DNA from: Bacteroidia bacterium
GTDB taxonomy: Bacteria; Bacteroidota; Bacteroidia; JAIBAJ01
Direction of reading: 5' to 3'
Length of the DNA stretch: 44,444 bases
Assembly (NCBI GenBank): GCA_019695265.1
Contig: JAIBAJ010000019.1
Span: 1-44,444 of the forward strand
The position numbers were made by a program, and so were the translations under genes. This document shows positions 1 to 40,685 of the stretch, piece after piece; positions within the stretch are counted from its first letter, which is position 1, and the number at the start of each line of letters is the position of its first letter. Under the pieces are notes generated by a model. That model was not told the origin of the DNA, searched no databases, and saw nothing but the letters and a program-made list of their open reading frames with translations.

Positions 1-146
1 CCGCCCAAACTAGCTTTTTGCTAAACCACCAGCAACTTGCAAGGGCGTTCGGGTCACGCTATCGGCTGTAATCCTCGTCCCACTTGGCTAGCGCCGCGTG
101 GTCCTGTGGGTTACTTGCCTCTATCGTTGCCCGAGGCACAACCTAC
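1..146 (-). repeat. Structured intergenic repeat, copy A (left end cut by window)
   Basis: This is the first of six copies of a dispersed structured element. Read on the minus strand, it carries the core CGGGCAACGATAGAGGC, then GTAA, an apical hairpin, TTAC, then GCCGATAGCGTGACCCG. The usual GTAG/CTAC pair of the family is here GTAA/TTAC, a compensatory change that keeps the stem. The apical part has CCAC pairing with GTGG around a loop (GCGGCGCTAGCC...) shared with the copy at 7566. The 3' arm (CGCCC pairing with GGGCG) reaches base 1, so the GC-rich tail lies outside the window. The element sits about 160 bp beyond the dapD stop codon. Confidence 0.85.
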
Positions 147-7565: not shown

Positions 7566-7728
7566 AGGAGGTTGCGCATCGGGCAACGATAGAGGCAAGT
7601 AGCCCACAGTCGCACGCGGCGCTAGCCAAGTGCGGCGAGGACTACAGCCGATAGCGTGACCCGAACGCCCGTGCAGGTTGTTTTGGATTTAATAAAAAGC
7701 TAATTGGGCGGAGGGGGCCCGCATAAAA
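7566..7728 (+). repeat. Structured intergenic repeat, copy B
   Basis: This copy has the full core (CGGGCAACGATAGAGGCAAGTAG ... CTACAGCCGATAGCGTGACCCG, in pieces), the CGCCC/GGGCG second stem and the tail GGAGGGGGCCCGC. The apical hairpin is type I: CGCAC pairs with GTGCG around the same loop as copy A, where the pair is CCAC/GTGG. Outside the hairpin it is nearly identical to copy E, including about 40 bases of flank after the tail, so B and E are recent duplicates. No gene lies inside it. Confidence 0.9.
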
Positions 7729-19194: not shown

Positions 19195-19362
19195 TTGGCG
19201 GGTCCCATTCGCCTACCAGCCGGTATAAAAACTCCAACTGAACTACAAGGCTCATGGTCGGGCTATCGGCTGTAGTCCTCGTCAACCGCAGTACCGAAAG
19301 GATTCGGTACTGCGGTTTCCTGTGGGCTACTTGCCTCTATCCCTACCCGAAAGAAGGTGCAA
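19195..19362 (-). repeat. Structured intergenic repeat, copy C
   Basis: On the minus strand the core reads GGGTAGGGATAGAGGCAAGTAG ... CTACAGCCGATAGCCCGACC. The inner triplet pair is GGG/CCC (19341-19343 with 19260-19262) where four other copies have ACG/CGT, a double compensatory change. The apical part is a perfect 15 bp hairpin (19284-19298 with 19303-19317) with a 4-base loop, unlike any other copy here. The tail reads GGCGAATGGGACCCGCC. It lies head to head with copy D between convergent genes. Confidence 0.9.
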
Positions 19363-19483: not shown

Positions 19484-19635
19484 GGCTTGCACCCGGGGCA
19501 ACGATAGAGGCAAGTAGCTTTAAGGCAACGCAGCGATTAGCGGAGTTGTCTTAAACTACAGCCGAAAGCGTGACCCGAACGCCTTGCACAAAGTATGAAT
19601 TTTGCAACTATTTGGTTGGCGGAAGGGGGCCCCCC
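19484..19635 (+). repeat. Structured intergenic repeat, copy D
   Basis: This copy has the core GGGGCAACGATAGAGGCAAGTAG ... CTACAGCCGAAAGCGTGACCCG in pieces, with GATAG changed to GAAAG. The apical hairpin is type II, with TTTAAG pairing with CTTAAA around a conserved AGCG...TTAGCGGAGTTG loop. The tail reads GGCGGAAGGGGGCCCCCC. Its 5' flank, CTTGCACC, is also the 5' flank of copy C, so the pair forms a divergent, head-to-head arrangement about 120 bases apart. Confidence 0.9.
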
Positions 19636-34601: not shown

Positions 34602-34765
34602 GGAGGTTGCGCATCGGGCAACGATAGAGGCAAGTAGCTCCAAGCCAACGAAGCGGTTTAGCGGAGTTGGCTTGGACTACAGCCGATAGCGTGACCCGAA
34701 CGCCCGTGCAGGTTGTTTTGGATTTAATAAAAAGCTGGTTGGGCGGAGGGGGCCCGCATAAAAAG
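34602..34765 (+). repeat. Structured intergenic repeat, copy E
   Basis: This is the clearest copy. Stems: CGGG (34615-34618) with CCCG (34695-34698); ACG (34621-34623) with CGT (34690-34692); GGC (34629-34631) with GCC (34682-34684); GTAG (34634-34637) with CTAC (34677-34680). ATAGA/GATAG forms a purine-rich internal loop. The apical hairpin is type II, CCAAGCCAAC pairing with GTTGGCTTGG. A second stem (CGCCC with GGGCG) and the tail GGAGGGGGCCCGC follow. It is nearly identical to copy B outside the apical hairpin. Confidence 0.92.
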
Positions 34766-34975
34766 TATTAAAAAAAACTTGTCGTTTCCTTACTAATTAA
34801 CTTTTCGGCATACCCCAAATAAACTATAGAATATTTGCAATTCGGTTTATATGCCAATACAAATCGGTATAAAATGAATGAGAGAATAAAAAACCTAGTC
34901 CAAAGTTGTTCATTTGTTAATATCCATTAGCCAGGTTTTGCCAACTTGTTAGTTTATTAAATTAAATGCATTGAT

Positions 34976-40532: not shown

Positions 40533-40685
40533 TTGGCGGGCCCCATTCGCCACCAAAATCAGGTTGAATTCCCAACATTCACATAGGCGAATGGTCGGGC
40601 TATCGGCTGTAGTCCAAGTCCACTCCGCTAAATCGCTGCGTTTACTTGGAGCTACTTGCCTCTATCCCTGCCCGACGCAACTACA
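40533..40685 (-). repeat. Structured intergenic repeat, copy F
   Basis: On the minus strand the core reads CGGGCAGGGATAGAGGCAAGTAG ... CTACAGCCGATAGCCCGACC. The inner pair is GGG/CCC (40666-40668 with 40597-40599), matching copy C, where copies A, B, D and E have ACG/CGT. The apical hairpin is type II, with CCAAGT pairing with ACTTGG. The second stem is the longest seen (CCATTCGCC with GGCGAATGG) and the tail is GGGGCCCGCC. It lies between the convergent GAPDH and aldehyde dehydrogenase genes. Confidence 0.9.

Follow-up and report, generated by a model that had tools for sequence, protein, structure and literature searches.

The question raised by this locus is what kind of element stands, six times over, between the genes of a 44,444-nt window (the whole stretch of DNA that was analysed), and whether it acts as a small-RNA gene, as a structure serving its neighbours or as a dispersed repeat. 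The six structured, intergenic copies lie where an earlier note on this DNA had placed them, as was borne out by R2, a covariance model built from the core of the element, which scored them at 59.7 to 77.7 bits (E 2e-16 to 4e-12). Below these six strong matches R2 gave only noise (next best E 4.3), and no degraded copies were found in the window.

The element is about 140 nt long. The GCCCG of the GGGCCCGC tail pairs with CGGGC at the 5' end to form a closing helix, P1, and the element therefore folds as a three-way junction of P1, P2 and P3. The earlier note described a core of stems and a tail, but its GGGCCC tail is not free: the GCCCG within it (ACCCG in copy C) is the 3' arm of P1 and pairs with CGGGC (CGGGT in copy C), both sides having changed together in copy C. 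Its second stem corresponds to P3 and lies inside the closing helix. The stem changes it listed are also real, with ACG/CGT in copies A, B, D and E becoming GGG/CCC in C and F, and GTAG/CTAC becoming GTAA/TTAC in A, while P1, the A-rich 3' tail, the order in inverted doublets and the phylum-wide copy numbers had been overlooked. The features of the window are the following:

1 to 133, minus strand: copy A; R2 match at 52-133, 72.1 bits; P2 with GTAA/TTAC; 3' arm of P1 lost at the window edge.
7580 to 7721, plus strand: copy B; R2 76.8 bits; P1 from CGGGC to GCCCG; included in alignment A2.
19199 to 19349, minus strand: copy C; R2 77.7 bits; P1 CGGGT/ACCCG, P2 GGG/CCC, long apical hairpin; included in alignment A2.
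19495 to 19633, plus strand: copy D; R2 59.7 bits; P1 GGGGC/GCCCC.
34615 to 34756, plus strand: copy E, by fold and sequence; R2 71.0 bits; P1 34615-34619 with 34752-34756, P2 core 34621-34692, P3 approximately 34695-34750.
34757 to 34774, plus strand: A-rich 3' tail of copy E, by sequence; CATAAAAAGTATTAAAAA.
40537 to 40674, minus strand: copy F, by fold; R2 71.8 bits; P1 CGGGC/GCCCG, P2 GGG/CCC, P3 CCATTCGCC/GGCGAATGG.

Copies C (left) and D (right) form a head-to-head doublet with the 5' ends facing each other. The RNA folding z-scores were -3.96 for copy E and -3.51 for copy F. P2 consists of ACG/CGT or GGG/CCC, an ATAGA/GATAG loop, GGC/GCC, an AA/A loop and GTAG/CTAC, capped by an apical hairpin that varies; the GTAG lies within the helix and is not kept in every lineage. 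P3 occurs either as CCC-GAA-CGCC/GGCG-GAG-GGG or as the perfect helix found in copy F, and is optional, being supported where room exists and absent in some lineages. On its 3' side, CCAAA or CATAA is followed by an A-rich stretch.

Covariation is strong in both P1 and P2 across 59 genomes. With 28 diverse sequences, the P2 covariation score reached 0.367 against 0.114 after shuffling, 8 of the 12 pairs changed on both sides and 95.2% of the P2 cells were paired (79.2% when shuffled), while sliding the partner by one column destroyed the signal. A wider set of 75 sequences, mostly from different genomes, gave 0.358 against 0.113 in an alignment that had been fitted to the model's own structure. 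The exact P1 partner was present in 68 of 72 elements from the 59 genomes, compared to a mean of 20.4 with P1 swapped, and these pairings were of 11 types, e.g., GCGTG/CACGC, GCGTT/AACGC, GCGGC/GCCGC and CGGGC/GCCCG. Selection on a folded single strand, as proposed earlier, is strongly supported by these values. The element would act as RNA or as single-stranded DNA, and the strand test that compares G.T with A.C pairs (RNA versus DNA) did not separate the two, with 15 versus 17. Pairing of the TTGCACC leader with the P3 loop as a pseudoknot was rejected, the complementarity being no greater than with swapped partners.

The whole-genome search suggested in the earlier note revealed hundreds of intact copies in the 3.83-Mb window genome, with all counts being either lower bounds or extrapolations. 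The exact core pattern was found 195 times (89 on one strand and 106 on the other) versus zero for the reversed control, which excludes chance; a covariance-model scan detected 57 copies in 400 kb, and at least 267 distinct copies in both orientations were mapped by combining R2 with the matches to Flavo-1 of Rfam. Extrapolation suggests that the genome probably contains 350 to 500. Relatives were detected by R2 in 130 of the 395 genomes sampled from the class, with one to more than 130 copies each, and in 33 of the 297 genomes of the phylum sample, three of them outside the class. Four congeneric genomes contained 90, 104, 122 and 134 copies and another one 66, while some genomes had a single copy only.

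At its own cut-offs Rfam returned nothing in the window, where no copy reached the gathering threshold of Flavo-1 (42 bits), and scanning copy E under relaxed settings produced chance matches only, without Flavo-1. Copy F aligns with Flavo-1 end to end and in register (cmscan, 19.2 bits, E 0.086), as does the relative L275, and the Flavobacterium-like relatives found by R2 are matched by Flavo-1 at identical coordinates with 30 to 40 bits, just under the cut-off. The window genome itself contains 65 Flavo-1 matches, ten of which reach at least 42 bits, and intermediates detected at the same places by both models form a continuum. Canonical Flavo-1 copies were barely detected by R2, so that the two models represent two ends of one family. 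Judged from these alignments, the window copies belong to a branch of the Flavo-1 family that is both large and divergent, and are homologous to RF01705. The choice of Flavo-1 as the comparison to run was right, while the exact match to a described element, which the earlier note had named as refuting its reading, was not found, the window copies being far below the Rfam threshold; given the homology, the family is not wholly undescribed. R2, run within Bacteroidota, showed it to be spread across the sampled phylum. Flavobacterium-like genomes, the genus being inferred, carry approximately 30 to 100 Flavo-1 copies each, and the Rfam model had matches in none of 14 control genomes.

In Allomuricauda, Flagellimonas and Euzebyella (Flavobacteriaceae) the sole copy of the genome is located just upstream of the tmRNA and on its strand, with P1 being GCGTT/AACGC in two of them and CGGGC/GCCCG in the third, and beside a divergent gene resembling saccharopine dehydrogenase. 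These three copies look vertically retained. A general association with tmRNA was rejected, since it is real in the three named Flavobacteriaceae and not general. Relatives were also present in five Bacteroides/Phocaeicola plasmid records, on which the window copy itself had no match. In two of them, both from Phocaeicola (NZ_CP072250.1 and NZ_CP096966.1), the region contained a retron-associated HNH gene, a recombinase and an AbiEii/AbiGii-type toxin gene. A blastn search of phages with one relative was negative, and IMG/VR yielded one contig.

Two other repeats were encountered in the same material. A second dispersed repeat of the window genome, TATACCGAATGNACATTATGTTTAGTCCAATTTTA ... GGCCTAACATACTGTATCCTCGGCA, is apparently palindromic and was located at L163:5885-6062, L034:1346-1362, L022, L050, L070, L172, L175 and L313; one of its copies lies within an element's apical loop and another is located upstream of tmRNA, while its GGCCTAACAT...CGGCA part is absent from the window. 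Another repeat of about 250 bp with palindromic arms (CCCAAAATTGTCATTAGAAA...) was present at differing distances upstream of the elements L002, L007 and L018, with 94% identity between L002 and L018.

The position of the elements relative to genes was analyzed with simple ORF calls, so the distances are approximate. In about two thirds of the cases, both in the window genome and in the unrelated genus g29, the 3' end of the element is turned towards that of a convergent gene. The median distance from the element 3' end to the convergent stop codon was 60 nt in the window genome, 26 nt in G028 and 38 nt in G295, and that from the element 5' end to the upstream same-strand stop was 186, 74 and 74 nt, respectively. 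Convergent regions were enriched for elements, and on the gene strand a T-rich stretch usually precedes the reverse-complemented element. Such placement would fit a cis-acting 3'-UTR or boundary structure, in which the reverse complement after stop codons would protect mRNA ends or limit convergent read-through. However, about one third of the copies are directed at the start of a gene on their own strand, the orientation between tandem genes is not clearly biased, the placement of the 3' end near stop codons is missing in the low-copy genomes and the conserved purine-rich core is on the strand opposite to the mRNA, so that this explanation is considered unlikely. A conserved neighbor gene was also sought and rejected, with none among 46 neighbors of low-copy elements, which, together with the varied neighbor contexts, supports the earlier statement that simple cis-regulation of one gene type is unlikely.

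Independent trans-acting small RNAs are the view that Rfam takes of Flavo-1. The Flavo-1 RNA (RF01705) was proposed computationally (Weinberg et al., 2010; PMC2864571), is typed in Rfam as 'Gene; sRNA' and counts in the literature among those bacterial sRNA families that are abundant but lack an assigned function. The RNA-like conserved fold with its covariation and the near-complete intactness of the copies would be in agreement with this. However, among 68 copies neither a T-run terminator after the 3' arm of P1 nor conserved upstream sequence beyond about 20 nt was found, the latter indicating that there is no shared promoter (judged by conservation only); both absences had already been noted for the window copies. 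Moreover, there are 40 to several hundred copies per genome, and in the transcriptome of F. psychrophilum the Flavo-1 matches were indistinctly sense or antisense to transcribed regions, with many outside these, which does not support discrete transcripts, the study itself drawing no functional conclusion on Flavo-1 (PMC9723704). Small-RNA genes are, hence, quite unlikely, and the element is best explained as a dispersed inverted-repeat element.

The order of the copies is consistent with such a repeat. Neighbors less than 700 bp apart in the window genome were head-to-head inverted doublets in 23 of 24 cases, and orientation alternated in 36 of 39 cases between neighbors less than 4 kb apart in three genomes; recombination that removes direct repeats may be part of the reason for this alternation. 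An A-rich tail follows the 3' end of nearly all copies in two unrelated lineages and in both neighbor contexts, with an A fraction of 0.52 to 0.62 that is equally strong whatever the neighboring gene does and a longest A-run of 5.6 and 5.1, compared to 2.9 and 2.7 in random intergenic DNA. Fourteen syntenic sites could be read between two congeners (approximately 75% identity in the alignable flanks): seven were occupied in the same orientation, two in the opposite orientation and five were without a detectable element. The elements of shared sites were only modestly more alike than random pairs, several having compensated P2 changes, and they did not qualify as clear orthologs, with mixed identity ranks of 1, 2, 3, 5, 14, 27 and 33 of 51. 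They could nevertheless be old orthologs with compensated changes and not a product of turnover.

Two nearly identical Flavo-1 copies in the window genome share exactly 77 nt of upstream sequence together with the element and then diverge abruptly, with A-runs on the 3' side; the sharp boundary and the A-run ends point to a copied unit of defined ends. A SINE-like retroposon would account for this pair, for a 3' end that is fixed and leads into A-runs even in unrelated lineages and, on the gene strand, for the T-rich stretch directly before the reverse-complemented element. Here, T-runs at the 3' ends of genes would prime a reverse transcriptase, with an RNA whose 3' end is A-rich as the template. 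Extended to the whole Flavo-1 superfamily, this would mean a folded, A-tailed RNA using a borrowed reverse transcriptase throughout Bacteroidota. Against it, no 5'-truncated copies were present in 444 kb and no target-site duplication was visible by eye in the recent pair, and the retroposon, in the narrow as well as in the extended form, is considered unlikely. Unpaired core halves in the same 444 kb were rejected as truncated copies, representing either threshold misses or cuts at contig edges. Decayed or truncated copies are nearly absent, which is atypical of mobile repeats and suggests a function at the level of the locus.

An element 300 to 850 bp away, on the 3' side and the same strand, was present at 4 of 30 loci with Y1 (RAYT) transposase genes, and the inverted doublets are arranged as in REPINs (Bertels and Rainey, 2011; PMC3116915). 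Nevertheless, REP proper mobilised by Y1 transposases is highly improbable and dependence on RAYT was rejected, because three of the four adjacent Y1 genes are flanked by simple repeats of their own (e.g., GACCCC..GGGGTC), the fourth is flanked by short CCTTTCAGG-type palindromes, and Y1 (PF01797) had no match in the copy-rich genome G295 (134 copies) or in G174 and G009, in which elements are also present. In the window genome, a RAYT-like Y1 gene amid arrays of GACCCC..GGGGTC hairpins (contig C29, 11539-11883) represents a conventional REP system beside the Flavo-1-like family.

The preferred reading, with a probability of roughly 0.58, is that of a REP/REPIN-like dispersed element, whose folded single strand is recognised and which selection keeps intact, with no Y1/RAYT required. 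It builds on the observed fold, Flavo-1 homology, copy number, intactness, inverted doublets, A-rich 3' ends and sites that are occupied, empty or flipped between congeners; against it stand the lack of a linked mobilising protein in a search confined to Y1 and of a visible target duplication, the scarcity of decayed copies, the three tmRNA-proximal copies that look vertically retained and the possibility of old orthologs at the syntenic sites. According to the mechanism proposed, the element would work as a folded single strand, either as single-stranded DNA at the replication fork or as RNA. The core GATNGA...GTAG/CTAC...GANAG, closed by P1, would be bound by a protein, and this binding may help the element to be copied into A-rich sites close to the 3' ends of genes. 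Copies with a broken fold would be lost, either because the bound structure is useful or because it is needed for persistence.

These results place Flavo-1 among the most abundant structured repeats found outside genes in Bacteroidota, with two added helices (P1 and P3) and a range extended well beyond the reach of Rfam, and its order (inverted doublets, alternating orientation and an A-rich end near stop codons) makes the mode of spread directly testable. If functional, the elements would provide hundreds of binding sites per genome for a so far unnamed factor, and, if mobile, their mobiliser would be an unrecognised system.

Eukaryotic SINEs are short, folded RNA-like units with an A-rich 3' end, present in hundreds of copies, and in these properties the element may be likened to them by analogy only, since, in contrast to SINEs, neither 5' truncation nor target-site duplication was seen and no reverse transcriptase was linked. 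With Flavo-1 it has in common the architecture of P2, the core in register (GAUNGA..., ...NAGC), the strand and the multicopy state; however, the printed Rfam consensus structure has P2 only, while P1 and an optional P3 are supported here, and the apical region, P1 and the tail of the elements are lineage-specific. REP is a simple palindrome of 20-40 bp (Di Nocera et al., 2013; PMC3733652) with GTAG or CGTC at one end, from which the element differs in size and end tag, being a three-way junction of about 140 nt with a purine-rich conserved core and an A-rich tail, and REP singlets are described as decaying, in contrast to the intact singlets here. What it does share with REP/REPIN is the dispersed, extragenic and non-coding mode of occurrence, in inverted doublets and in hundreds of copies.
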